Program-made: the position numbers and the translations under genes
Part shown: positions 3,977 to 63,995 of the stretch, piece after piece
How positions within the stretch are numbered: the stretch's first letter is position 1
Layout of the letters: each line of letters starts with the position of its first letter
From: Galerina marginata
Taxonomy: Eukaryota > Basidiomycota > Agaricomycetes > Agaricales > Galerinaceae
Length of the DNA stretch: 64,000 nt
Reading direction: 5' to 3'
NCBI GenBank assembly: GCA_023014335.1
Contig: JAECYW010000018.1
Coordinates: forward strand, 1,488,001 to 1,552,000
Notes under the pieces: generated by a model
What the model was told of the DNA's origin: nothing
Seen by the model: the letters and a program-made list of their open reading frames with translations, nothing else
Database searches by the model: none

Positions 3977-4019
3977 TGTGCATAATTCAATTCTAATTAG
4001 AATCGATTCATTATGCACA
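3977..4019. repeat. Palindrome at left end of outer element
   Basis: TGTGCATAAT and ATTATGCACA bracket an inner TCTAATTAGA palindrome. The arrangement matches 14868-14914 at the opposite end of the outer insertion in inverted orientation, so it is probably terminal or subterminal structure of that element. Confidence 0.75.
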
Positions 4020-5005
4020 CTGGGCTCTAAGTTAGAATTGGCTACTATGAATATTTCTATTCTAATGAGAGGTCTGCTTTAAATGGATACTCCAGTATAC
4101 CTAACCTCTCCCGCCAATGCTCGCTCCGATCAGGGATCTCGATTTATCAATACCCCTGTACTGCTTTGTGCGGGTGCTGTTATTACCGTATGCCGATTCC
4201 CAACTCCCGTGTATCTTACTCGAGTAAATGGTCCGAGAGAGGCGGCACCATATCGAGCGACAGGGTGAAATCACGCCACTATTAATGAGCGCCGCCGTGT
4301 TCCGCAGACTGCCCTCCGACGCTGAATTTCGCCAATTTGCGTGATAGGCGCCGTGCCGAACACAGCAGCTCTTCCCGTGGTTGTCTTAACGGAGGCATTT
4401 AGTAAAATGCCTCCGCTAAGCCGACGACCGATTCTTTTTTGTCAATTCCTCCTGTGCATATGCGCCGCACTCCATTATTTACCTCTTCCAAATTTCACTT
4501 CCGCCCAACAAATTCGAAACCTCATCCTCCTTTCTCCCCTCTCAGAATGTCTACTTAGCTTCTGGAATTTTGTCGCAGTTGCCTCTGTTGTTTGCAACGC
4601 CCACCTCGCTCTCAAACGTTATTTCCAGCCGTATCCATCGTCTACGGCCTCGATCTTTCTCCCGACTTTGTACCTCGACCCCCTGCTTACCAAATATTAT
4701 TTTTGTTGAACCTCTAAAACCCCGAATCGCACATCGGGGCCTCTCTATACGGCGCTTATTTTGTTGTGTTTTGCTTGGTACACGCTGTAGGCACATCATC
4801 ACTGAGTATTAAAGTTTCATGATAATAAGTGGTGCTGCAAGACAATTGATCAGGAACCCCGCACTCGAAAAGGCGGTCGTTAAACGAAGGCCGTGTTCCG
4901 GAACATTGCAAGAATTCGGTCAAGTTGTTTTCTATAGCATTAACTTATATTCAAGTGTTCGGTTCGTTTGACGGAATGAAGAATGGTTGGAAGTTATCTG
5001 ACATT
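4020..5005. other. Gene-free left part of outer element with one hairpin
   Basis: A 122-codon open frame at 4341-4709 (+) has no recognised domain and overlaps the hairpin at 4385-4420. No coding gene is supported here. The stretch ends in TATCTGACATT at 4995-5005, which recurs at 14174-14184. Confidence 0.4.
4385..4420. repeat. 36-bp hairpin of the CTTAcCrGAGGC family
   Basis: The arm CTTAACGGAGGCATTT pairs with AAATGCCTCCGCTAAG. Two other hairpins in the window have nearly the same arms: 9583-9618 and 52237-52272. Those two are embedded in a longer shared repeat, whereas this one has the hairpin only. Confidence 0.7.
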
Positions 5006-5010
5006 TAGTC

Positions 5011-5075
5011 CTGTTTCTACCGCGCCCCTAAAACCGTGTCAGAAAATGCTTATGTAAAGTGCGGACTTTGAAACC
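5011..5075 (+). repeat. Left terminal inverted repeat of the DUF6589 element
   Basis: Begins CTGTTTCTACCGCGCCCCT and continues to TTTGAAACC. The reverse complement of 14048-14113 matches with one indel and about three substitutions, all in the first 25 bp. A weaker match, TCGCGTCAAT, continues inward on both sides. Confidence 0.88.
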
Positions 5076-5186
5076 GCGTCGCGTCAATGTTGAGAGACGC
5101 TCTCAGAACTCTCGACGCGTTTATACCATATTAACGCTTTCTATCTTCACAAATTCCACTTGTATTTCATTATAACCGCAACTTCA

Positions 5187-8100
5187 ATGGATACCAATGT
5201 CCGAGTCGTCAGATCTTTCAAGAAATTGAAGCCAATTGCGGAAGTACCAGAAACCCCGCAGTATATCACACATTTCCTACCATCTCCTCCGGATTCTCTC
5301 CTTTTACTGTCTCCAAGTCCAAATGGCCAACCTGTATCGTCACCTGATGTATCTCTGGTGCCACCTCTCGGCTCTCCCTTCAATGACCTTGGTTCCCTTG
5401 GCGGATCTTCAAGTCAACCTCGACTCATTCAGCCTCCCCAAAACGACGCGCAGAAACTGTCATTGAAGTTCGAGAGAATGGAAGCTTTTCTAAAGGACTC
5501 GGGATTCGATTCTATTGGTGATTTCTTGAAGATTCTGTTCTACAACCCCAGCCGTGTCTCTGGAGAACCTGACCCTCGAGGCTCCTGTCATGCGAAGGCT
5601 GTTTCTCGTTTTCTCCAGGGACGAAACAAGATCAAAATGGCGGATATTATTCCCCTCATCTACGGGCACAAACATAGCGCACCCTCACCATCCTCACCAC
5701 GTTATTCCGAGCGTTATGCTCCATTCTCATCATCTGTTCCCCCCACTGAAATCTTTCACGCACGTCCATGTTTATTCACTTGGGCTACCAATCTTGTTGC
5801 TGCTTATATTCACCGTGAGATCTACGAACTTGGTGATAAAGATGAAAGTGTTCATCTTCGAGCTTCGACAAATGGCCGTCAACCTGATCACGTCAACCTT
5901 ATAACTTGGGAGGCTCTCGGAAAGTTTAGCATTGCCGGTCTCTGCGAGAAATACAAGGCTCGTGCACCCGTTTCTTGGCACCTCACGGAATCAATGGCTG
6001 CCTCCCGCAAGAACGGAACTGTGATTCTAAAGAAGCGCCGCCCTCATCCGATTGTAGGTCATTAGAGTCTGTTTATTTGTGTTCGACGCTTATCCATCAT
6101 AGATTCAAGTCGGCGCCATCAGCTCTTTCATACTCGCACGCAACCACTATGCAAATGGAGACCTTGCAATGGTCCTAGGTGTTTGGCACTTCGCGGCGAA
6201 ATCTCACATTGATGTCAAGCGCGTTTACAGCCGGCTCGGGAACATTGTTAGTGACACGACCATTCGAAAAGCACTTGACACTCTCACAGGATCAAGTCTT
6301 TCTGCCCTGCGTGCGGCTATTCAGGATGCAACTGAGCGAGGAGAAACAGAATTCGCTTTAATTATTGATAATGTCCAGGAGTATTGCCAAGTTTACGAAG
6401 GAGGAATTGCACGGGAGAATATTCTGAAGGTCGGAACTGCAGCTACCGCCGTGCGGCTCGATGACTGCAAGCCTGGCGCTTTTGATTGCAAGAGTCATCT
6501 TCTGCGCGTGATTCAAAAGGAGCGAAAAAATTTGACAGTTAACAGCCTGTGGAATGATATTGATTGGGTACACCAGCGATCTGTACAAGCTCTCCACTGG
6601 GTTCGAGTCCTAGTCGACTACCCTCCAGAACTCAAATTCTTGTCTACGGAGATCTCGTCACGGTTTCGTTCATCGCCTATTGCGAAGCATCGTATGCGCG
6701 AGGGACGGAAAACTGTTGTCCAGCCACTAGGAACGAATGCAGAAAAGGAGATTGAAACCCAAGGAATGGCACGAGCCATCATCGACTTCGACCAGCAGAT
6801 GGGCGTAACTCCTGAGGCCGCTGATAAACTGCTTTCCTGGGTTCGTGGAGACGGCGCTTCGTATGCAACCACACTTCGCCTGCAAAAATATTTGTGCGCC
6901 GTTCCGAATAACTACGACTCTTTCCGAAACCGAATTGCGACACCAGAAATTTGGCATGCGAAGGCCACAATGGTTAACTCAATTGCCGCAAACCATTATG
7001 GTCCAGCAACTTCAAAGGATCCGTCATCTCTTTCTCGCAGTTCAAGCCTGGCCGGTTTCAAACGGCCAAGTAATCTTAGCAAATGTGACTATTATCCGAC
7101 TGTACGAAGCATGACGTTAGTCTGGGAAGCACAAGTACTCGACTGTTGGAGGTACCTTTGTGTTTTGCATTCACATCTTCGGACTAACAGCTCTTAATTA
7201 CAGAGTGCATCTTGATGCGACGCCCGACCTCCTTTCGCACTTCAAAACGCTGGCGGCCAAAGGTGAATTGCCTTCGCTGGACACATTGCTCCACGAAGCG
7301 GACCTTCTTGTTGGTAAATACGCGTCTCAGGAAGCATACGAACAATGCCTATCTGCTGCAGAGTCGAGAGATGCACCGGAGTCAATGAAAATTAAGCCTC
7401 ACCCAACCGTCACCAGTTCAATTCAAAACCCGGATTCGGCGAACAACGACACCAATGCAGCCGCTGTTGGAATGGAATTTCAGGATGAGAATGCCGAAAA
7501 TGACCCACCGTCCCTTCCGACAGAAAACGTGCCCAAGGTTCATCAAGAGGCCGAGGATTTTGACGGAGACCGAGTTCTCGCAAACAGCATTCTTTTCTTG
7601 CAGGATTTTGGCTGGTGGACTGAGATTTCGTATGCAGTTCCAGAAGGTGACATTGGTCGGGCTTTTGAAATTTTGAAGGTGAACGCTATTTCAAAAGTAT
7701 AGCAATCATGTTCGACATTTGATATCATATTGACAGATCTGGATATTTACCTTTGCTGGATCGTCCCACCAAAACTACATGACGTACCTTCTCGAGGTTT
7801 ATTGCTTCCTACGATACGAGGCCTCGAAAGATCTTCGCGATGGTGTCCTCAATAACTGGCTCGTAAACATCACGGGAGAACTGGGGAAATGGATCGAGGG
7901 TGACTTACTACAGGAGCATTATAACTGCTGGCTTGAGGATCAGGTACAGAAAAGGGGAGGTGACTTCGACGACAAATTCTACCGAAGCACTCTCTCACCG
8001 AATGTCAATCATTTTTTACGCATCAAGGAAGAAATCGAGAATGCATTTGAGCTTTCAAGTCGCGCAAAAACACATACCTCCCCTCATTTGCGACATGAAC

Positions 8101-8777
8101 TTCGACTTCTCCTCGCGCTGTTTATGGAGGAACACCTCCATCTCTTTTGTTCTGGACGGTCTTTAGGGCATGCAGCACTAAACCAACTTAGCCGCGGTTT
8201 TGATCGACTTCAAATACGCAAACTGGAAGAATTCATCCGGAATACTACGACCTATGCAGACGTACTTGCCGATATTCTCGCCTTGAAACAAGCTAACGAA
8301 CTGGAAACAAACAACCCCCCAACAGCGGAAGAAGTCCGAGTTCAGCAACCGAATCATCCTGATGACGATATCGACATCGACCCACTTTCCAGCGACAGTT
8401 CCAACTCCTCTGATTCTGGAACTTCTGTGCCAGAAACCTCTGATTCCTTGTCGTCATTACGAGTCCTATTTATAGGGCTCATTCTTTTATCGTTCTTGAC
8501 CCACCCAAATTTTGGGCCTGCGTTACGCTCATTTAGCCGGCAAACCCCGAGACCTATTTTTAGCCGTGCTTCTATTTCTGTTATCGTCGGTCAACGTCCC
8601 CGTTCAACTTTCTCTTCACCCCCATTCCCATTTCGTCCCACTTGCATCGTCTATATCGCTGAAACAACGACGGAAACAGTAGAGACCCTGGTCCAGCGGA
8701 TGGTGCGGTTGACGGGGCGCGGTAGCTTGTTTCGCAGTGAGTCGCTTGCTCGACTTCTTGCTCGGGTTTTCGACTAA
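5187..8777 (+). CDS. DUF6589 domain protein, candidate transposase
   Basis: Four exons join in frame, 5187-6053, 6103-7151, 7204-7680 and 7739-8777, giving 1143 codons and a stop. The introns are 49-58 bp with GT-AG ends. The start ATG at 5187 is the first in-frame ATG, 112 bp inside the left TIR. The middle and C-terminal parts carry motifs I associate with the basidiomycete DUF6589 family: LIIDNVQEY, KHRMREGRKT, RGDGAS, EIWHAK, NHYGPATSKDPSSLSRSS, SMTLVWEAQVLD and FTFAGSSHQNYMTYLLE. Candidate acidic residues for an RNase H-like fold are D378, D539 and E631, with H574 between them; this triad is inference. The N-terminal 200 residues are Pro/Ser-rich. The C-terminus has an acidic Ser/Asp tract and a hydrophobic stretch. 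The intact frame and the TIR context argue for recent activity. Confidence 0.85.
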
Positions 8778-8869
8778 CAATGGTGCAGCGAGGTTGTATG
8801 CTGCAGCTTGTGAGATGTAGGCGTGGACGATTGCGAATCAGGCAGTCGATAAGTGGGCAAATTTGGTAC

Positions 8870-9300
8870 ATTTGCAGTGCGTTGAAGTCCGGAGTTCGTT
8901 GAAAACAAGGCGAGTAACTTTCAACGATGAATCATATGATATGAATGAAGACTTACCCGTTTACCTCGAAAGGCTCCCAAATTGTCCCGTCAATTTCCGC
9001 CCTCCTATGTCGTCGATGCAAGTAATGCCGTGCCAACCACGCTGCCTCCTTCACTTGCGCGACATGGGTAAGAAATGTACGCGTTGCCTTGTTGACCGCC
9101 GTGGATGTGCTCGACTGAATAGTCGATGGCGGTGTCCGTCGAGTGAGAGCGGGAGCGGGAGGGTGGCGTTGACTGTGCCGGCTTGCTGCTCAATTTGCGG
9201 TGAGTTTCTTGCATTGATTCCGTTCCTGGGTATTCAACTAACCTCCGAGCATAGATATATGCTGCGGCCAGAGAGGAATAGGAGGCGGGGATTGTGAATT
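8870..9300 (+). repeat. Diverged tandem repeat, copy 1, with a Cys-rich open frame
   Basis: This resembles 10030-10740: both have ACAAGGTGAGT/ACAAGGCGAGT, then CTTAC about 60 bp later, and near the right end CGGTGAGTT followed by CCGTTCC and a TAG acceptor. The plus frame contains GKKCTRCLVDRRGC and further Cys residues (CCSIC), reminiscent of small Cys-cluster proteins but without a usable start or full motif. It may be the remnant of a cargo gene of the element, duplicated once. Confidence 0.4.
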
Positions 9301-9318
9301 GGGAGTCGAGGAGGTAGT

Positions 9319-10008
9319 TAGTGTTTTGAAGTCCGGTTGCAAGACTGGAAAAAGACCGGGACCAGACCGGACCAAAACCGATCAGGACCGCAAATTATTA
9401 GGACCGGTCAAGACCACAACTGCAGTCCGGTCCTTGGTCCTCCGTGATCTCAAAAATCTTCAGACCGATAAAAGACCGGTTGCAACCGGTTGCAACCGGT
9501 CTTTTCCAGCCCACGAGACCAAGGCGCTGAGCTCAAACTCGGCGCTTAATCAACGCCAACGTGAGTTCCAAATGAAAGTTTTCTTACCAGAGGCATTTTT
9601 TAAAACGCCTCTGGTAAGAAAACCTTCGTTTGCAAAGGTTGGATGGAGCTTGATAGATCGGGAAATGGCATAACTTAGTGTAAAAATAATAGATAAACAA
9701 ATTTCAGACTATATTCTTTTGATTTACAAAATCTTAGACACATATAATGAAAAAAAAGTACTGCCCAGTGCATAAAATACGAGAATCACCTACAAAGACC
9801 AGTCTTGGACCGGTCGCCAACTGGTTGCAACCGCAACCGGTTCAGACCGGTCGCGCAACCGCAAAAGACTGCACAAGACCGCTCAGGACCGGTCCTGGTC
9901 GGTCCAGTCCGGTTTTTTGCAGAATTTGAGGGAGGAGGGACCGGTCCCGGTCCCGGTCCTGAGCTCGGAAGGTCAAAAAACCGGACCTGACCGGACTTCA
10001 AAACACTA
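9319..10008. mobile_element. hAT-type MITE, 690 bp
   Basis: The 8-bp target duplication GAGGTAGT is perfect (9311-9318 and 10009-10016). The terminal inverted repeats begin TAGTGTTTTGAAGTCCGGT and are perfect for 19 bp. An 8-bp duplication and TAGNG termini are hAT superfamily hallmarks. Both arms are packed with ACCGG/GACCGGT motifs in both orientations (about 9330-9510 and 9800-9990), like the subterminal transposase-binding clusters of hAT elements. No transposase is encoded. The centre (about 9576-9795) is a separate hairpin repeat that appears to have inserted later. Confidence 0.92.
9576..9795 (+). repeat. Hairpin repeat R52, copy inside the hAT MITE
   Basis: Starts with a long hairpin (arms AAGTTTTCTTACCAGAGGC and GCCTCTGGTAAGAAAACCTT), followed by TTTTGATTTACAAAATCTTAGACACATATAAT and about 60 bp more. 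The same order occurs at 52225-52450. A partial copy lacking the hairpin is at 10745-10835. Confidence 0.8.
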
Positions 10009-10029
10009 GAGGTAGTGGTGGGTGGCGGC

Positions 10030-10740
10030 AAGGCTGGACATTGACATTGGAATGTCTAAGTCCCGAGCTTGAGTGGGCTAGGAAACAAGGTGAGTAAAGA
10101 TACGATGAAGATATGAAGTTTACTTACTTGTTAAAAAGTGCAAACCATCAGTTTGAGTCGACGATGGCGGCGGCTGCAGGATGTTGAGCATCGGCTCGGC
10201 GCAGTCGGCGGGCAGAGGAAGAACTGTTATAAACGAGGTAAGCCTGTTTCCGGACTTCAGAAGAGAACGTTGCTGACCTGAATGACTTGTAGCTGTCCCT
10301 AAACCTTGATTTGCCGCGCAATGTCGTCGACGACATCCGCAAACACTGCAAGTCGATATCCAACCAATGAACGCGAAGTGGATGAAGCTGCGGCGGACTT
10401 TGTTGCGGGTGTGTCTCGCGTAGCTAACGCCTGTCCGCCTCACAGCACTCCTCGAGAATGGACTCAAAACCCGTACTCTGCACCCCCCGCCTCCGCGCCT
10501 CCAGCTTCAACCACTGAACGGACAATTGAAGGGAGGGGGCGGTAACGACAGCCAGTGGTGTTGACGATGCCGACTGCGGGGTGTAATCAAGACTGCGAGA
10601 CGGCGGGAGTGGTGCGAGCAAGAGAAGGAGTAAAAGCGGTGGTGTTGATGTGAGGCTGGCTGGCTTCTGGTTTCGCGGTGAGTTGGTCGCTTTGGTCCCG
10701 TTCCCGGCTTATTCGACTGACCTCTATCTAGATTGGTCAG
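10030..10740 (+). repeat. Diverged tandem repeat, copy 2
   Basis: Partner of 8870-9300. It retains the same splice-like landmarks but no convincing reading frame. The plus frame at 10306-10545 and minus frames around 10120-10620 are Ser/Pro/Ala-rich and unrecognised. Confidence 0.4.
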
Positions 10741-10744
10741 GCGC

Positions 10745-10835
10745 TGACGTCTACTTTTGATTTACAACATTTTAGACACATATAATTAAGAAAAGTACTC
10801 TCTAATGTGTACAGTATAAGAATTACGGATGATCG
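10745..10835 (+). repeat. Partial copy of repeat R52 (hairpin absent)
   Basis: Contains TTTTGATTTACAACATTTTAGACACATATAATTAAG and the following TGTGTACAGTATAAGAATTAC block, matching 9718-9785 and 52372-52442. It is truncated on the left, where the hairpin would be. Confidence 0.75.
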
Positions 10836-11309
10836 ATGACCCGTCAAATCTACCCGCGCGGGTTTCTGTACATCGTAATGCCGAGAACCTAATGACTCAG
10901 TGAGTACTCTTCCAATTTGCGGCACCTCTTGGTTTGTCGGTGTAGCAGGCAGACTGTCTATCCCAGGCTTGCCTACGTCCAGATTTAGATCGGTTTGTTC
11001 AAGGTTTGTTTTGTTCAAATGCTCAAAGAATAGGAGGTACGGTCCAATACCAATGCCCCGAGGAGCCAACCGAAGGTTGGCGACAAGTGGCGGGATCATT
11101 GAAAACTCGGAGAACCGGTAACTTTTGAGCCTGTAATTAGCTGCAGCAAGGCACTGGCAACATAGTCAATCACTGGTTTGAATACTCAAGTTAGATATGT
11201 TCTATGTTAATAGGGGCTAAGTAAAATGCATCATTTCGTAATTTGACCTGCTTTTGGTATTTGCATGTTGCTTAACTTGACTTGGGGAATGTGAAAAAGG
11301 GACTCGTAC
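10836..11309. other. No gene seen inside the element
   Basis: Short frames of 73-120 codons on both strands lack recognisable features. Part of the left edge may be a degenerate continuation of repeat R52, with a GCGGGTTTCTGTAC block that parallels 52470. Confidence 0.35.
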
Positions 11310-11576
11310 ATGCCAAGCAATGGCCTACAAAACAAGTCTAGCCATTTGTTTGACAGTATTGAAGATGCGGATGACGACCCGAGCAATAACCATTTGGTCA
11401 GTGGTTCGGAATATGATGTCTACATCTCAGAGGATGGGCTAACGCACCGAGCATGGCATGAACAAGCGGATGAGCAAGCCAATTCAAGTGATGAGGATAG
11501 CGAATCTCAGGATTTTAACAGTACTTTACTTTCTGATGAGGGAGAGCATGGCGAGGACTTGTATAATTCAGATTAA
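11310..11576 (+). CDS. Small acidic hypothetical protein
   Basis: An 88-codon ATG frame rich in Asp, Glu and Ser, for example DEDSESQDF near its C-terminal third. It ends 36 bp before the 3' end of the convergent helicase gene. No domain is recognised, and it could equally be the last exon of a longer cargo gene or a chance frame. No splice acceptor was chosen upstream. Confidence 0.3.
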   Translation: MPSNGLQNKSSHLFDSIEDADDDPSNNHLVSGSEYDVYISEDGLTHRAWHEQADEQANSSDEDSESQDFNSTLLSDEGEHGEDLYNSD

Positions 11577-11612
11577 ACTGACTTTGAAGTGCAAATAGAC
11601 AGGAAATTATAA

Positions 11613-13907
11613 TCAATTACAACCTTGTAAGCGTACAGAAGATCGAGTTACTCGACTGGGAGGTTCATTCTCCTTTTCGCCTAATCCCTGGGGCACCGCC
11701 GAACCCATATTGCGCCGGCCTGTGCGATACTTGGGTCCATAATCGTCGAGCGCTTGAGCAACGCTCGGTTGAGCAGCGCGAGGGGCTCTTCGTCGCTTGG
11801 GAATGTTGGTAATGTCCTCGGAGGCCACACGTTTGCGGGTCACGGGTCGGTTTACAGGTTCTTCGATCTCTTGTGCAGCTGGAGCAGGGTCGGGGGATGA
11901 TGAATGGCTGCTGTCATCTTCAGGGATGCTACTGGGATGGCGTTGTCTGGCGCGCTGCCTTGCATTTGCATTTGCTCGTTTGCTGGCCCGTTGAACAATG
12001 ATGAGAGTCTGAACTGAGATTACCGAATCAAACAGAAGGTTTTGATATTTTGGGTAATGTAGCCAGGCCGTTTTGACAATGTCTTCGACTTGAGCGGGAA
12101 AATGAATAACAAGAAGTTGATCAAGTATCAAGGATAAAATATTGGATGGAAAGTATGACGAACGTGGAATATACGAGTTGCGGTTCTCGGACCTGTTTTC
12201 TAGCTGTCGAATAGATTCTCCGAAGGCAACAAAATGCTTTTCAGCGACGGCACGTTCAGTCTTTTTTAATTTGTCCTTCTTTGGTACAGGCAAGGTTTGG
12301 ATAGTGGTATTTTTTGGAGGCGTTAAGATTGGAAGCAATGAGGTGCCATGTGGAATTGGGGATGCTGGGAAATCAATTGTTCCTCCTCGTCGTAGTAGAC
12401 ATAGCGAGCAGGGGACTGGGCGACCGGCAGCAAGGCAATCTAAAAAAGACAGATCTGGCCGAGACGGATCTAGCGACGGATTCTCATACCGGCGGTTGAT
12501 GCAGGCGATGTAGCACCACTTTTCTGAAATGACGAGAGCCTTGGACTTGTCAAGGATACGAGGGGCTTTGCTTGTATTTGATGGGTTGCTCGATGCAGTG
12601 GTGAGAGCTGAAATAGATTAGCAAGGTATAACAGCCGCAATAATACAAGACTCACATTCAAGATACTTTTCTGCAGCCTTGATCATACTGCGTGGAGTAA
12701 AGATGACTCCTCGGCCAATCGTTCCCTCGTTCCTTCCCACACGTCCCTTCTCCTGCCAAGCCTCGTCAAGTGTCGGAGCAAATTCAAGGGAGAGACTATC
12801 CAGAAGCATCTTCGCATTGAGCCCATTAGAAAAAGCGACTGTTGCGATGACAATTTGACAATTAGGATCAGTCTCGATTAGGTGGATCGTCTCGTGATTA
12901 TACTCTGAGGTGCAGATCGAATGGTAAATTCGAGCTCGTAAGAGTTTGTCGGCTCCATTTGGTTGACAGCGCCAAAGATAAGTGTGTACTTTGAGGACTT
13001 GACGAAGTGTTTGACAGTGTATTATCGTCTTTCTTCCGCTAGCCAAGTATGGAAGTAATTCTGGAAAATTATCGCCAGTCATCCCGTGAGCCATGAATTG
13101 GATAGTGAAGTGCGTATTTGGGCGCTCATTGGACCTCCTGATAAGCTTGAAACTTCCTTCAAAAAAGCCCAGACTCTTGCAAACAGATTCAGTTGGTAGA
13201 CCAGGTTCGAGAGTTGCCGTGAGCCCAAGAACAGAAATGGACGACGGAAAGCGGCCACGTAAGAATGCTCCTATAAGGGTAAAGGCTGGACGAAAAGAAA
13301 GGCCCCAGGTGTTGATCAAGTGGGCTTCATCGACACATGCAAATAAGACATTGGATCGAAAGGTGGGGCTCTCCGTAATTTCTCGCCACTCCTTGTCACG
13401 GAGGTGCTCCGGGTCCACACACACAACCTGCCATCGGCTACACTCCTTAATATCTTGCGCCAGGCGAACTCCAGTTTTCCTTGCCTCAGTTAAAGTTTCC
13501 GCACAGTAAGAGAACCCAGATATGTTCAGTTTGGAAAGTTCGTCAACCTAGCAAGCTCTCAGTACTGAATCAACATAAAGAGGAAAAAGACTTACAATAT
13601 TACTTGCCAGACCCTTCGTTGGTGTGATTACAACCCCAGTAGGCTTCGCTCGAGTAGGCAGACCCTGGGGATAGGCCTCGGGGTTCTTGTTGTATTCAAG
13701 GAGAATAAGACACGGAATCGCAAAGGCAGCCGACTTCCCATCCCCAGTTGCAGTGCAGCAAAGTATATCTGTTCCATCAAGAATCCCAGAAACAAGCTCG
13801 AGCTGGACTGCATGCAAACCGTTCGTCCATGTTGGTACGACCTTCTTCACAATGAGCTTGATTGTCTCCAAGCCGACGACATCCTGCCAGCGGTGTCCCG
13901 AAGCCAT
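11613..13907 (-). CDS. RecQ-like DEAH-box DNA helicase (element-borne)
   Basis: Three exons, 13907-13596, 13547-12656 and 12607-11613, join in frame to 732 residues plus stop. Helicase motifs are in order: Walker A ATGDGKS (about residues 53-59), DEAH (177-180), LTAT near 213-216, and motif VI QEKGRVGRN (about 369-377) in place of the RecQ QxxGRxGRD pattern. The C-terminal third has a Cys cluster (KWCYIAC, then PVPCSLC), a basic Arg/Lys/Ser/Pro tail and KRRRAPR, a possible nuclear signal. The protein would use ATP to unwind DNA. It lacks an obvious HRDC domain. It lies 141 bp inside the right TIR and converges on the DUF6589 gene. The spliced frame shows no lesion. A role in transposition is inference from context. 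Confidence 0.88.
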
Positions 13908-14047
13908 TCGGTTTGACTCATAACAGGTTCCAGACCATTAAATAAAGATTTAATCCAAATTCTAGAGGTAGAACAACAAGATCGCAAGAATTATCGCGTC
14001 GAGACGAAGGCAGGAGGAGGAATATTGACGCGACAGCGGCGGACCGG

Positions 14048-14113
14048 GGTTTCAAAGTCCGCACTTTACATAAGCATTTTCTGACACGGTTCGAGGGGCG
14101 CGGTAAAAAACAG
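14048..14113 (-). repeat. Right terminal inverted repeat of the DUF6589 element
   Basis: The reverse complement reads CTGTTTTTTACCGCGCCCCT and continues to TTTGAAACC, matching 5011-5075. Confidence 0.88.
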
Positions 14114-14162
14114 ACCACATATATCGTGAGCCGTAGGGCACATCACATATATCGTGGTCTGG
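14111..14162. repeat. 52-bp palindromic block with a duplicated CACATATATCGTG
   Basis: CAGACCACATATATCGTG at the left pairs imperfectly with CACATATATCGTGGTCTGG at the right. CACATATATCGTG also occurs as a direct repeat (14116-14128 and 14143-14155). It lies between the recognisable TIR and the candidate target duplication, and may be a small insertion that separates the two. Confidence 0.6.
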
Positions 14163-14184
14163 CTAGGAGAGACTATCTGACATT

Positions 14185-16024
14185 CAAGGAACATCAGCAT
14201 GCATTAATCATATCTTATTCTGACGACTTGATAAGACAGGGCTCGAACTTCGAAGCCACTTTTCAGTAATTCTAAAAACTATATCCCAGGTTGATCTCAT
14301 GACTGTAAGGCATTGCCTTTCAGTCTTGTACGTATACCTTATACCCTTGCCTAACAGAAACCTGCCTCATCCATACTCATTTTTCCATTGCAGTGGACAA
14401 AAGAGGGATTGTAGAGTACGTTCAATAAGAACCATACAGCCGCCTTGTGAGAGGGTGGTGTTGTGTGCGCACCGGGTCTGACTGCAATTTTGACGGTCAC
14501 ATACAAGTCGCATGCTACTGAAGGGTAGGGTGCGGACCGGGTAACCGAACCCATAGCTGATAGCTGTCGTCGTTTCGAACCGTGATGCATGCGTGATGTG
14601 GTGAGCTGATCACCGTTCCTCACGATGACTTGGGAATTTGATCGCTGTGAAGGGCATCACACACTGGTAGCTCTGATTAATCTCCATCAGGGTGAAATCG
14701 GGGGATTTGTAAACCGCTTAGACGCTTCCCAAGATCTTATCTGTCCCCTGCATCAGGCATTCTTGTAGATTTATGCATAATCTTTAAGGCGGCTCTCGTC
14801 TGCATAAACTGCACAGCCGCTACCTCTCGCATTGTGCAAAGTTATGCATGACTCTGGCTTAGACGGTATTGTGCATAATGAATTTACTCTCATTAGAGTC
14901 AATTTATGCACAATTATAGGGTCATTGCCTGTTTGAACTTAATTTGGGTGTCAACACAGTGAAGCATGGCAAAAATGATAAAGATGGACATGAAGACGGA
15001 GATGAAGATATGCGCGGAGCAGGAGCAGGAAACGAGGGAGTTTGTTGGCGTGGTTGAGAATGTCGGTCCCACTGCCATAGATTTCCTTTGGCTCAGCATG
15101 TTTCGCACCCAAACACAGAGTGCTGATGACGGTGACGGTCATTGAGGTAAAGAGAGATGGAGGTGAGATAATCCCGAGGACCATGATGAGGCGAGGCACA
15201 GCCAGACACTAGAACTCACAAATTGTCCTGAGAGAAAGAGTTATTCGTTCGCGTAACACTCCTGCGGTGCTCCAGTTGCCAGTTACGACGGTATGGAAAC
15301 GGAAGCCAGCGTTTTATGCGGAGGATAGTTGCACAGCGAAGCCCGCCTTTCCAATGAGCAACCGGCATAGGCCTGCACGTTGATGATGCAGAGACAATCT
15401 TTGAGTAATACGAAAGGGAAAGTTAGAATGGGACAGAAGCTCGAAAGGACGAAGAACGATCATACAATTCCTTCAGAGCATGGAGACCTTGGCCGTGTGC
15501 AGCCCACTTATATGTATTGCCGTCGCTGGCGCGTTAATTCAAGCCCTATAGTTTCAAATGTTATGAGCCTGTGTCCGCAGAAGAAATGAAGCATTCGAAC
15601 CCAACACGCACCCGAAATCCCGGGCAGAGACAAGCATCATCATAACGTTCCTTTCATAACCCATCCAAATTGAATTTACGCCTCCTTCTCAGACCTTGTT
15701 CATGGGATCCAGTAATGAACGCGAAAGCCAGCCGTCATGGGTGGAGACAACGAGCGAGTTGAGGTGTCTGAATGTTGGTCGGTTGGGAAGCGTTGAATAT
15801 GGGATTTTCCTGGCGACATAGAGCGAATTCAATACTTCCAGTGCTTCAGTATGTTATATTTAAATGAAAGGTTTACAAAGAAAAAGTCCAGTATTCAATC
15901 AGTGAATGTGAAGAACGAAAACAGATCCAGAGAGCAAAACCTCAGGAATCGGTGACGATTGTACTAGCACGTGATACAGTGATCAGAAACGTGTGACAAA
16001 CGCGTCTCCAACGCGTTTCCTGAG
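14185..16024. other. Right part of outer element and flank; no confident gene
   Basis: Up to 14929 this belongs to the outer insertion, including the palindrome at 14868-14914. To the right, 14939-14958 matches 55966-55985. A minus-strand hydrophobic frame (about 14914-15199) rich in Leu, Phe and His is not recognised. Nothing else is supported. Confidence 0.4.
14868..14914. repeat. Palindrome at right end of outer element
   Basis: ATTGTGCATAA pairs with TTATGCACAAT around CTCTCATTAGAG. It is the inverted counterpart of 3977-4019. Confidence 0.75.
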
Positions 16025-59002: not shown

Positions 59003-62000
59003 TCACAGATTTGCATCCTGAAGCAACTTCCGAATCACAGGATCAAATACATCTTGTATAGCCAGCGGATTCACCTCTGCGCCGTTCTTGAGCAGCACCT
59101 TCACGATCCCCCTGTGACCTTGGCGGGACGCTGCCTGGAGTGCGTTCTCGTATTGTCCTCCCTGTGCATTCACCTCTGCGCCGTTCTTAAGCAGTACCTT
59201 CACAATCCCCTCGTGACCTCGATGGGACGCTGCCTGGAGTGCGTTCCCATATTTGCCTCCCTGTGCATTCACCTCTGCGCCGTTCTCAAGCAGCAGCTTC
59301 ACAAACCCCCTTTGAAATCCACATGAGGCTGCCTGGAGTGCATTCCCGTATTTTCCTCCCTGTGCATTCACGTCTGCGCCGTTCTCGAGCAGCATCTTCA
59401 TGATCCCCTTGTGACCTTCATACGACGCTGCCTGGAGGGCGTTCCCGTATTGTCCTCCCTGTGCATTCACCTCTGCACCATTTTCAAGCAGCATCTGAAC
59501 GATCCCCTCGTGACCTCGAGACGACGCTGCCTGGAGGGCGTTCCCGTATTGTCCTCCCTGTGCATTCACGTCTGCGCCATTCTCAAGCAGCACCTTCACG
59601 ATCCTTTCCGACTTGCCACCTCCATGCGAGGCTCCCTGGAGTGCATTCCCATATCTGCCTCCCTGTGCATTCACCTCTGCGCCATTCTCGAGCAGCACCT
59701 TCACGATCCCCTCGTGACCTTCAGACGACGCTGCCTGGAGTGCGTTCCCGTATTCTCCTCCCTGTGCATTCACGTCTGCGCCGTTCTCAAGTAGCATCTT
59801 CACGACCCCTTTGCCACCTCCATATGATGCCGCCTGGAGGGCGCTCCCGTATTCTCCTGCCTGTGCATTCACCTCTGCGCCATTCTCGAGCAGCACCTTC
59901 ACGATCCCCTCGTGACCTTCAGACGACGCTACCTGAAGTGCGTTCCCAAAGATTCCTCCCTGTGCATTCACCTCTGCGCCGTTCTCGAGCAGCACCTTCA
60001 CGATTTCCTGGGAACCTCTAGACGATGCTGCCTGGAGTGCGTTCATGTAGAATCCTCCCTGTGCATTCACGTCTGCGCCGTTCTCGAGCAGCACCTTCAC
60101 GATCCCCTCGTTACCTTCATACGACGCTGCCTGGAGTGCGTTCCCATAGAATCCTCCCTGTGCAGTCATCTCTGCGCCGTACTCAAGCAGCACTTTCATG
60201 ATCCCTGCGTGACCTTCAGACGACATTGCCAGGAGTGCATTACCGTATTTGCCTTCCTGTGCAATCACCTCTGCGCCATTCACCTCTGCGCCGTTCGCAA
60301 GCAGTACCTTCATGAATCTCCTCATCACCTCTAGACAACGCTGCCAGGAGTGCATTCCCATATTCTCCTCGCTGTGCATTCACGTCTGCACCGTTCTTGA
60401 GCAGTACCTTCACAATCCCCTTGTGATCTCTAGACGACGCTGCCTGGAGTGCATTCCCGTATTCTCCTCCCTGTGCATTCACGTCTGCGCCGTTCTCGAG
60501 CAGCATCTTCACGATCCCCTCGTGACCTTCATACGACGCTGCCTGGAGGGCATTCCTGTATTTTCCTCCCTGTGCATTCACCTCTGCACCGTTTTCAAGC
60601 AGCATCTGCACGATCCCCTCAGTGACCTCGAGACGACGCTGCCTGGAGTGCATTCCCGTATTGCCCTCCCTGTGCATTCACCTCTGCGCCGTTCTCGAGC
60701 AGAACCTTGACGATCCCCTCGTCACCTCGATCTGACGCTGCCTGGAGTGCGTTCCCGTATCTTCCTCCTTGTGCATTCACCTCTGCGCCGTTCTCAAGCA
60801 GCACTTTCACGATCCCCTCGTGACCTCGAAACGACGCTGCCTGGAGTGCATTTCCGTGTGCTCCTCCCTGTGCATTCACGTCTGCGCCGCTCTCGAGTAG
60901 GTAACATGACACATGTTCCATTCCAGCCACTGACGCATAATAAAGAGGCAAACAAACATTATATTCGTCCAACGTGAGGTCCTTGCGCATCCCCCACTGG
61001 TCGTCAATATCCCAGATCCGGATCCAGTTTGTGAAGGAACCATTCCTGGATGTGAACAATTTCAAGCTCAACTGCAGGACAGCGGGTTCCATCCCTCCAG
61101 ATTTTGCATGGTCAATCCAATGCTCAGCGGCATATGATGCAAGGGGTGCGGAGTCGAGCATAGCCGTCAGCTCAAATGAATGGAACTGCAGAAGGTAAGC
61201 AAGCGAGATTTCCGAGATCTTCGAATGAGAAGTTTTTTCGTTGATACAGAAACATTCCTCAACACGATCGGAGAGGAGATACTCCTTGACAGAGAAATGC
61301 GAGAGCTTAATAGTACCTGTCCTCACTGTCAGCAAAGGCTGAAATCCGTGATCAAGCTGACAGTGCTTACCTTCTGATTCGCTCACAAGACTCGAACACC
61401 TCACTAGCATGTCCCGTGGATTAGGATACCGTCTTTTCGAGTTAAAAACTGGTCCATCTTCCGAGGTGAAGTCCACTGTGATAGCTTCAGCGATTTCTGC
61501 AATTTCCATCGGACGCCTAGAAAAGGCCAACCACTGCAGGAACGTCATTGTGTCGGCACGATATTTCCCGTCAATCGCCTTCAGCATTCGCTTGTAGATG
61601 TCGTCTAGATCCTTTGGTAGGTTCTTCAGTTGCTGCATTATTTCATGTTCGCTCAGACAATTGTTCAGTTCAGCCACCTGCAATGCGACCCATCTAAACC
61701 TTAGAGTTGCCACAATATCAGCAACAATCCCACAATGGACTACTTGGTAAGGAGAAACGTACGATCCCTCAGCACCCTCCCTCAACCCAGATTCTATTAT
61801 CTCTCGAGTGATTTCATCATATTCTGTAAATTTCGATTCCATCTGAAGTGCGAGATACTTTAAAATGTCCTGGTTTGCGGTGGCTTCTCCAATATCAATG
61901 GAATGTGGATCAAACGTCCTAAAAACCTTTTCAATGTCTCGCTCCGGCCGACTGGTGACCACGATGTGAAGGTTTTCCGGTGTCCGATTTGTATCCAAGG

Positions 62001-63995
62001 CGAGTTTACTCACCCAACTCAGCGTCTTTTCGCGGTCGGTACACTCGTCGAGAGCATCAATGACAATATATGCAGGCGAGAATCCATCGAGAATATTTCG
62101 CAGAACGTTTTGAAGTTGAATTACCGATGGCTGCTGATGATCTCCACAGCGGTTATATAGAGCTGCCAATTCTACCGGTACACCGCCGCTCTGGTGAGAG
62201 AACTGTGAAATGAGGCATCGGATGAGCTTGTTGTGAAGTTGTAGTTCGCTTTGTGAATCTCTTCCATCAAAGAAGAAATATGCAATTGCCGGTGGTGGAA
62301 TTGTCTCGGAGAGTTTATTGATAATTGACGAGCTGAGAAGACCGCTCGTCGACATTCCTAGCGCACCACTCGTAAAGAAGAGACTCACCATAGGATGCTT
62401 TTACCGCTTCCAGCTATGGAATTGTTTAACACTCAAATTCAACAGCTTACTAACAAGCTTACCCTTTCCTTTAACCCAAAGAAACCCAGGGGTTTCTCGC
62501 CACTTGTTGAATCGCTCGCCTTCGAGAAACCAGGCGCAGGTGTCTACCTGACGTTTTTCGTCTGCTTCATTACGATTCCTGGAGCTGTCAGGCGGGGATA
62601 GCCAGTTGCGAATCTTTTCCGCTGAGCAATTGATCAAATTATTTCAATTATCGAAGGGACAGGAACTCGAAAGTACCTATTTTGTCGTCCTTGATTGCCT
62701 CCAATGTCCATCCTATGCCCACCGTGAATGAATCAGAGAAAGGATGTCGTCAAAGAACTAGAAATGTACCGGTTTGGTTCACGCCATCCTCAATCTTCTT
62801 TACTCGAGTGTTCGTGTCAAAATTGATTCTATCGGAAAGCTTCGCCTTCAGAGCGGCGCAGCTATCTCGGCATTCCCCAATACGAGATTTTAGACCGGCG
62901 GGTATCTGGATTTTGACAGTTCGCGCTACGAGCAAACCGTCGTTAGACTTGACAGCGTTACGGAGGAGCGGGTTAGGATTACCTGCCCAGGACAATTTTG
63001 CATATTCATGAATGAGACATGCAACCTGTAGTGATTGACGGCTGATTTCTTCGATGACATTGTCCGTGTTTGGGATCACTGAAAGATCAGGAATCGCATT
63101 TGCAGTACCCAACAGTTCGCGCAAGGTGCTGGCGAGGTCTCGAATGGATTTATCCTGGAGCTCTGTCTCCTGTACAGCCTGCTCGAGTAATATCTGACAT
63201 TCATATCAGCTTTCCGGACATCTCGTAGGTTAATTCACCTGATAAAGACTGGAAACAATGGTCCACGATGCGTTGAGTATCGGGTGTGCCTGATCGCCAC
63301 CATAAGCCGATTTCCTGTGAGAGTCAATAGACACAGAGGTTAATGTCATACCTGAGAGAGCTTGTCCATAATATTCTTGGTCAATTGTAATACTTTCCCG
63401 ACCGTCGAAACAGTGCTCCACACAGCATCATTGCTTGAGAGGTGAGAAGTGTCGAGGTCAACTTTTTCCATGAATTCTTTGACATTGTCAACCGATCCGG
63501 AAATACGAGACAAAACTATCTTCATTTTGGGAGGAATGGGGTTGCCCTTCTTATCCGTCAGATCAAAACTGGTGTCTAGTTAAATCGTCTTCAACATGAA
63601 TGCATGCATATAGCGAATATTATACTCACTATTTTCGAGCAAGTCTACGACTTTCCCTTCGTATTGTCCCACGAAACCATTGAACAGAGTGATATTGGTC
63701 CCGATTCCGCGATGGAGCACAACCTTCATCATTGACGATGGCTCAAACCAGCTAAGTCCAAGAGGTGAATATCGCACCAAGAAATCATTCACAAGGCCAA
63801 GACCTACATTTTATTGTCTGCATTCCATTCCCATTTGAGCACTGATGAGCGAGGCTTAGGGCGTGTCGAGTTCGCAACCTCCTTTTCGGCCACATAAATT
63901 CGCACAGAGTACTGTGATCGTGTTCTCCGTTTCCCATTTTCAACGTCGCCTTCAACTTCGATAGCTGGATAACGATCAGCGGAAAACAACGTCAT
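59003..63995 (-). CDS. NACHT-ankyrin NLR (STAND) protein; ankyrin tail frameshifted
   Basis: A multi-exon minus-strand gene that may begin beyond the window. N-terminal exons (63995-63804, then 63792-62750) look like the C2-like and helical regions of basidiomycete NLRs. The NACHT follows: FLEGERFNKWRETPGFLWVKGK, then Walker A GKAGSGKS on a 25-nt exon (62413-62389), Walker B AYIVIDALDEC, the sensor-like VVTSRPERD, FLQWLAFSRRPMEIAEIAEA and LSHFSVKEYLL. About 19 ankyrin repeats of 33 residues end the protein. Two single-base insertions, near 60621 and 60315, shift the ankyrin frame, so the first would truncate the protein after about three repeats. Fungal NLRs act in non-self recognition; the ligand here is unknown. 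Confidence 0.85.
59020..60905 (-). repeat. Array of about 19 near-identical 99-bp ankyrin units
   Basis: Each unit encodes KVLLENGAEVNAQGG followed by YGNALQAASxxGHEGIV with few changes. Nucleotide identity between units is high, for example TGTGCATTCACCTCTGCGCC recurs in most (on the plus strand). Variation clusters at the helix-loop positions after AAS. Confidence 0.9.

Follow-up and report, generated by a model that had tools for sequence, protein, structure and literature searches.

Does a gene of the DUF6589 family that lies beside a RecQ-like helicase gene, between shared inverted termini, form a mobile unit, and if so, is this unit of a new type? The question is raised by a locus of Galerina marginata, contig JAECYW010000018.1, of which a stretch of 64,000 nt (hereafter the window) was analysed and compared with the organism's own genome (69.3 Mb, 43 contigs). 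A preliminary description, made from the letters of the window alone, had proposed that the two genes and their terminal inverted repeats (TIRs) constitute a candidate new type of autonomous DNA transposon, with DUF6589 as its recombinase. We report here that the unit is a real DNA transposon, with both genes inside common ends, with target-site duplications and with many further copies. It is very probably a cut-and-paste (class II) element of the AcademH kind, in which DUF6589 would be the transposase and whose copy in the window carries a 2.85-kb nested insertion.

Ends and target-site duplications

The window element is 9170 bp long (5006-14175) and is bounded by exact 9-bp target-site duplications, TCTGACATT, at 4997-5005 and 14176-14184. 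An inverted-repeat search found arms of 76 nt at 5003-5078 and 14045-14120 that are 88% complementary, with 8966 nt between them and a longest identical stretch of 44 nt (5032-5075 in the left arm). The left TIR, 5'-TAGTCCTGTTTCTACCGCGCCCC..., lies at 5006-5078 on the + strand and its end motif recurs in the genome; comparison of copies places the beginning of the element, TAGTCCTGTTT..., at 5006. On the right, the inner TIR (14045-14120, - strand) is followed at 14121-14175 by a terminal extension common to other copies, which ends with TAGTCTCTCCTAGCCAGAC on the - strand and is the true right end. Complete copies extend about 55 bp past the right TIR of the preliminary description and finish with TAGTCTCTCCTAGCCAGAC or a close variant. 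Of the TIRs first drawn at 5011-5075 and 14048-14113, the 44-nt identical core was thus retained but the limits were not, the true ends being 5006 and 14175. An 11-bp duplication around the element was also considered and rejected, since the other copies indicate that two of its 11 bases are the terminal TA of the element. The arms and the convergent gene pair were both found again, which confirms that the TIRs enclose the DUF6589 gene and the helicase gene. Outer, weaker inverted repeats (75-77%) surround the element at 4006-4071 and 14853-14910; they possibly belong to an older element into which the window element inserted.

The preliminary description would have failed if the TIRs were confined to this locus; the ends recur throughout the genome. 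A search with the left end returned at least 40 matches, 28 of which form 14 pairs about 450-460 bp apart, and these pairs are miniature elements. The left-end motif is present at 24 places including the window (23 exact, one with two mismatches). For the right-end motif there are 70 places, of which 46 are exact and 24 contain a single mismatch, and the same motifs read backwards, as a control, gave 0 places each. The right-end motif, TAGTCTCTCCTAGNCAGAC, is therefore about three times commoner than the left-end motif, so that there are probably more derivatives, with a different left end.

Twenty-eight two-ended units could be assessed for target-site duplications. An exact 9-bp duplication flanks 23 of them, two have 10 bp, two have 8 bp and the last has 9 bp with one mismatch; when left flanks were paired with the right flanks of other units as a control (754 cross-pairs), matches did not exceed 6 bp. 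This set consists of the window element, 14 miniatures of 516-529 bp, a 528-bp miniature at L026 and L027, the loci L023, L024 and L025, and, from other families, eight units with two genes. L026 and L027 share 8636 identical bases and are segmentally duplicated, so that both 10-bp duplications represent one insertion event. Moreover, in four of the eight two-gene units (L032, L033, L036 and L038) the ends given by BLAST were moved by hand, with the flanks in view, to begin with TAG, by one base in L033 and L036 and by more in L032 and L038; their duplications are thus less independent than those of the other units. Left out of the count were L028 and L043, each of which has lost an end; L034, where one end is doubled and a search for a duplication gave none; L037, in which a TIR was not found; L049, of which 4 kb only were fetched; the C39:937127 pair; the DUF6589-only loci L039-L042, L044 and L048; and the helicase-only loci L045-L047. 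L050-L053 were counted apart. The autonomous type of transposon first proposed is thus supported by common ends, target-site duplications and many further copies.

Gene pairing and recent copies

The Pfam model of DUF6589, PF20231, matches 45 stretches in the genome, which were grouped by position into 30 loci. At 15 of these a convergent helicase match lies within 5 kb: C2, C16, C43 (three), C5, C23 (three), C24, C39, C17, C3, C18 and the window. Of these 15 paired loci, 10 have the two ends as well as a duplication, which in one case contains a mismatch. One end is damaged at C18 (L043) and at one C43 locus (L034), an inverted repeat was searched for and not found at C24 (L037), and the sequence fetched for C17 and C39 was too short to judge the ends. 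At L034, a second partial copy of the unit's TIR lies just outside one end (1344-1720), where no duplication was found. Helicase fragments without DUF6589 occur in the same-ended derivatives L024, L025 and L028, the last with one end damaged.

Three of the paired loci (L029, L030 and L031, on C2, C16 and C43) carry a 5629-bp unit that is 100% identical among the three, with 239-bp TIRs that are themselves 100% identical. Their flanks do not align and each has its own duplication (8, 9 and 9 bp), and these three identical copies with duplications suggest recent activity. Five frames of at least 150 aa touch the unit: a 243-aa frame, similar to the N-terminus of P0001, and one of 667 aa on the + strand, both of the DUF6589 gene; frames of 202 and 640 aa on the - strand, both of the helicase gene; and a fifth that begins within the final 54 bases of the unit and extends beyond it. 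Among frames of this size, no third gene was found. The core of RecQ helicases is itself not a recombinase, and in WRN the exonuclease is a separate domain. With no third gene and such a helicase core, DUF6589 is by elimination the probable transposase; the recombinase role first given to it stands in the form of best transposase candidate, the helicase being the only gene beside it in the 5629-bp copies.

The same family has left smaller products. A 1017-bp derivative at L053 120-1136 (C12:2716619-2717635) has both ends and a 9-bp duplication, GAAGAAAGG. Remnants of 56 bp (L050 110-165, C12), 63 bp (L052 89-151, C34) and 74 bp (L051 111-184, C23) are palindrome-like: one end is joined to the other and nearly all between them is lost. 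As read by eye, two of the three have plain 9-bp duplications (CCTTATCGC and CTGCCCGCA), and in the third CTCCTCGAG stands on either side, the left side having four bases in addition. These remnants could result from failed gap repair or from replication slippage across a long inverted repeat. RecQ-family enzymes are known to act in repair synthesis, and a role of the helicase in forming the remnants would be a guess.

The two proteins and the nested insertion

In the window, PF20231 matches fall in three consecutive exon frames on the + strand, convergent to a protein with DEAD and Helicase_C matches on the - strand. The splice model of the DUF6589 gene comprises exon 1 (5187-6053), which is colinear with the homologue P0121, exon 2 (6103-7151; E=1.3e-49), exon 3 (7204-7678; E=1.1e-18) and exon 4 (7737-8457; E=2.1e-41), which runs up to the nested insertion and whose open frame extends to 8777, inside the insert. 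The C-terminal tail continues past the insertion at 11309-11576 (+ strand). In the homologues P0121, P0123 and P0124, the match of the tail to the window stops at 8426-8459 and resumes at 11316-11352, nearly gapless in protein (for P0121 these limits are 8459 and 11325). In place of the window's 3 kb, about 160 bases are present in the C3 copy, window positions 8291-11335 being without match in C3. Since homologue tails match both sides of the insert and C3 is shorter, the tail of the DUF6589 gene is split by an insertion. Hence the gene first described as intact with four exons has an open conserved domain but is not whole.

The insertion itself measures 2851 bp (about 8458-11308, boundaries set by motifs), has the ends TACGAGTCC..GGACTCGTA and is flanked by CAT. 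When its flanks were joined and compared with C3, only the right flank aligned and no alignment passed through the junction, so that an empty site was not shown; either the sequence there has diverged or the boundary was placed with a small error. Within the insertion, a miniature element with an 8-bp duplication, GAGGTAGT, lies at 9319-10008; we call it hAT-like on the assumption that 8-bp duplications are typical of that group.

An alignment of 66 homologues chosen from protein searches (A1) bears on the catalytic centre D378/D539/E631 suggested earlier. D378 and D539, both encoded in exon 2, are invariant (D in 64/64 and 65/65), but the column of E631 contains E in 32/64 only, and E631 was rejected as a catalytic residue. 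E779 (E in 62/65) or E857 (E in 65/65) fit better, and H574 is H in 66/66. These conserved acidic residues would fit a DDE triad in which a long insertion precedes the final acidic position. The A1 profile gave 0 matches to PDB sequences at E up to 1, and a single window exon matched only two antibody chains there, with E about 1. When 32 members of DUF6589 were scanned against Pfam (E up to 10), DUF6589 was returned in 32/32, and 11 further families were each hit by a single member.

The helicase gene, on the - strand, has exon 1 at 13596-13907 (Walker A motif ATGDGKS; DEAD 5.1e-10), exon 2 at 12656-13547 (DEAH box and motif VI; Helicase_C 9e-06, DEAD 3.3e-05) and exon 3 at 11613-12607 (splice model, as for exon 1). 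Once spliced, it matches recQ_fam (TIGR00614) over 484 residues with an E of 1.4e-31, below the curated cut-off of that family, and its PDB matches are RecQ and RECQ1 chains (best 1.4e-18). By these profile and sequence matches, it is nearest to recQ_fam/RecQ. The RecQ-like DEAH helicase gene convergent to the DUF6589 gene is thus confirmed by domain matches and the splice model. The seven window frames that were scanned gave only DUF6589, DEAD and Helicase_C and a weak match to a Cas3-like helicase C-terminus.

Both genes are under purifying selection. Between the window and C3, the ratio of nonsynonymous to synonymous substitution rates (dN/dS) is 0.092 for exon 2 of DUF6589 (349 codons) and 0.098 for exon 2 of the helicase (295 codons, the C3 frame having 2 stops). 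Ratios of 0.039-0.080 from the window/C18 comparison were not used, the synonymous rate there being saturated (2.5-3.2) or not computable.

These observations would fit the following course of transposition. DUF6589 would bind the TAGTC-type ends and cut them, and then join them to target cuts staggered by 9 bp, giving the 9-bp duplications. The convergent RecQ-like helicase would be a second element-encoded factor, probably unwinding the ends or aiding repair synthesis at the donor gap. Derivatives of about 520 bp and of 1.0-1.5 kb with the same ends would have moved in trans.

Probable affinity with AcademH and rival explanations

Academ elements have terminal inverted repeats, and the founding description of AcademH is reportedly Kojima 2020 (Mob DNA 11:15). 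In the parts of the following reports available to us, duplications are of 9 or 10 bp for AcademH and of 3 or 4 bp for AcademX (PMC10045372), AcademH occurs in low copy number in Basidiomycota, Ascomycota and Mucoromycota (PMC10799480), and the mushroom Marasmius oreades has putative nonautonomous Academ elements (PMC8290104). Of 1,938 fungal Academ copies, 1,568 have recognizable domains, e.g. DEAD/DEAH helicase and recQ_fam, owing to which Academs are often annotated as host genes (PMC6416283, Muszewska et al. 2019, in the portion available). Our element resembles these fungal Academs in its helicase domains and AcademH, as so described, in several respects: a helicase beside a transposase candidate, the window helicase being of the RecQ family and a convergent match being present at half of the DUF6589 loci; duplications of exactly 9 or 10 bp in 25/28 units; a Basidiomycota host; and TIRs. 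It differs in the 8-bp duplications of 2/28 units and in the nested insertion of the window copy. Assignment to AcademH is thus strongly favoured, as a match to published descriptions rather than of DUF6589 to Academ transposase sequences. As the element's genes, the family of its helicase, the length of its duplications and its host group agree with AcademH, a helicase-coding type with 9- or 10-bp duplications already described in fungi, the new type first proposed is not supported.

Several observations weigh against this assignment. AcademH has been reported from animals, and no animal name appeared among the matches listed in three protein searches, many of these matches being unnamed. The Pfam scan at E up to 10 found no family other than DUF6589 in more than one of the 32 members. 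The helicases of the window and of the L029 family are only 28% alike, with a BLASTP match of about 146 residues. Moreover, 15 of the 30 DUF6589 loci have no helicase match, and in six of these 15 (L039-L042, L044 and L048) tblastn with two queries found no helicase and no long TIR was found; tblastn is insensitive here, and it likewise failed to find, in L040, L041, L044 and L048, the DUF6589 detected there with the Pfam model. Likewise, tblastn found no DUF6589 at the helicase loci L045-L047. Several lone DUF6589 loci are short or have stop codons, for which decay is the simplest reading, and host domestication of some may also be considered. DUF6589 loci without TIRs and helicase, which were to speak against the preliminary description, do exist, and are read as decayed copies.

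Other known elements were compared. MULE / MuDR elements have duplications of about 9 bp and long TIRs, as here, but the window element carries a RecQ-like helicase, and the Pfam scan of the 32 members (E up to 10) found no MULE transposase domain. Helitrons have a Rep/helicase protein and neither target-site duplication nor TIR, and are ruled out by the TIRs and duplications of the window element. KolobokH is, in the part of its description available, a fungal DNA transposon with a RecQ helicase and 4-bp TTAA duplications (PMC9587614); it is excluded by the duplications, about 9 bp without fixed sequence here, and by the gene layout, the helicase being here a separate convergent gene. A subtelomeric RecQ family was set aside as telomere-linked according to the available part of its report (PMC4522978), and the accessible portion of the TET/JBP transposon literature (PMC12730594) contained nothing on a DUF6589-helicase pair.

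Alternatively, DUF6589 might be an unrelated transposase, of a superfamily distinct from Academ, that independently gained a RecQ-like helicase and 9-bp duplications. DUF6589 could not be linked by sequence to Academ or to any transposase family of Pfam, and the name DUF6589 was not found in the literature searched; the agreement with AcademH in genes carried, type of helicase, length of duplication and host group, as far as its descriptions were available, makes this unlikely. A further form of the idea, which we consider improbable, is that DUF6589 founds its own superfamily outside Academ, with a RecQ-type helicase as regular partner, and that the 56-74-bp remnants are an excision signature left by the helicase copying back across long inverted repeats. 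It is also conceivable that DUF6589 is accessory and that the helicase or a host transposase catalyses, the unit being moved in trans. Catalysis by DUF6589 is indeed a deduction, and many derivatives too short for either whole gene have the same ends and duplications and hence moved in trans. Nevertheless, no gene beyond these two is present among the frames of at least 150 aa in the identical 5.6-kb copies, DUF6589 is under purifying selection with invariant acidic residues, and established knowledge does not make a recombinase of the RecQ core, so that we regard an accessory DUF6589 as very unlikely. Finally, a helicase match is missing at half of the DUF6589 loci, as would be expected had two host genes come by chance to lie between unrelated repeats, but this is contradicted by the duplications around whole units, by 15 convergent pairs, 10 of them with their own ends and duplications, and by three identical dispersed copies, and it is hardly credible.

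Elsewhere in the window, at 59003-62400 (- strand), two frames have ankyrin repeats and one a nephrocystin-3-like N-terminus (PF24883); they resemble a fungal NLR-like gene.

To conclude, what may be new in the AcademH assignment is the connection of the DUF6589 family to a transposase: such a link was not found under that name in the literature searched, and Repbase, which was not searched, may hold such sequences. DUF6589 proteins are hypothetical proteins in dozens of mushroom-forming species among the matches listed. If DUF6589 is the AcademH transposase, such genes would have to be masked as transposons and the domain would gain a testable function. Moreover, the three identical 5629-bp copies provide a practical test system for a transposon-borne RecQ helicase.

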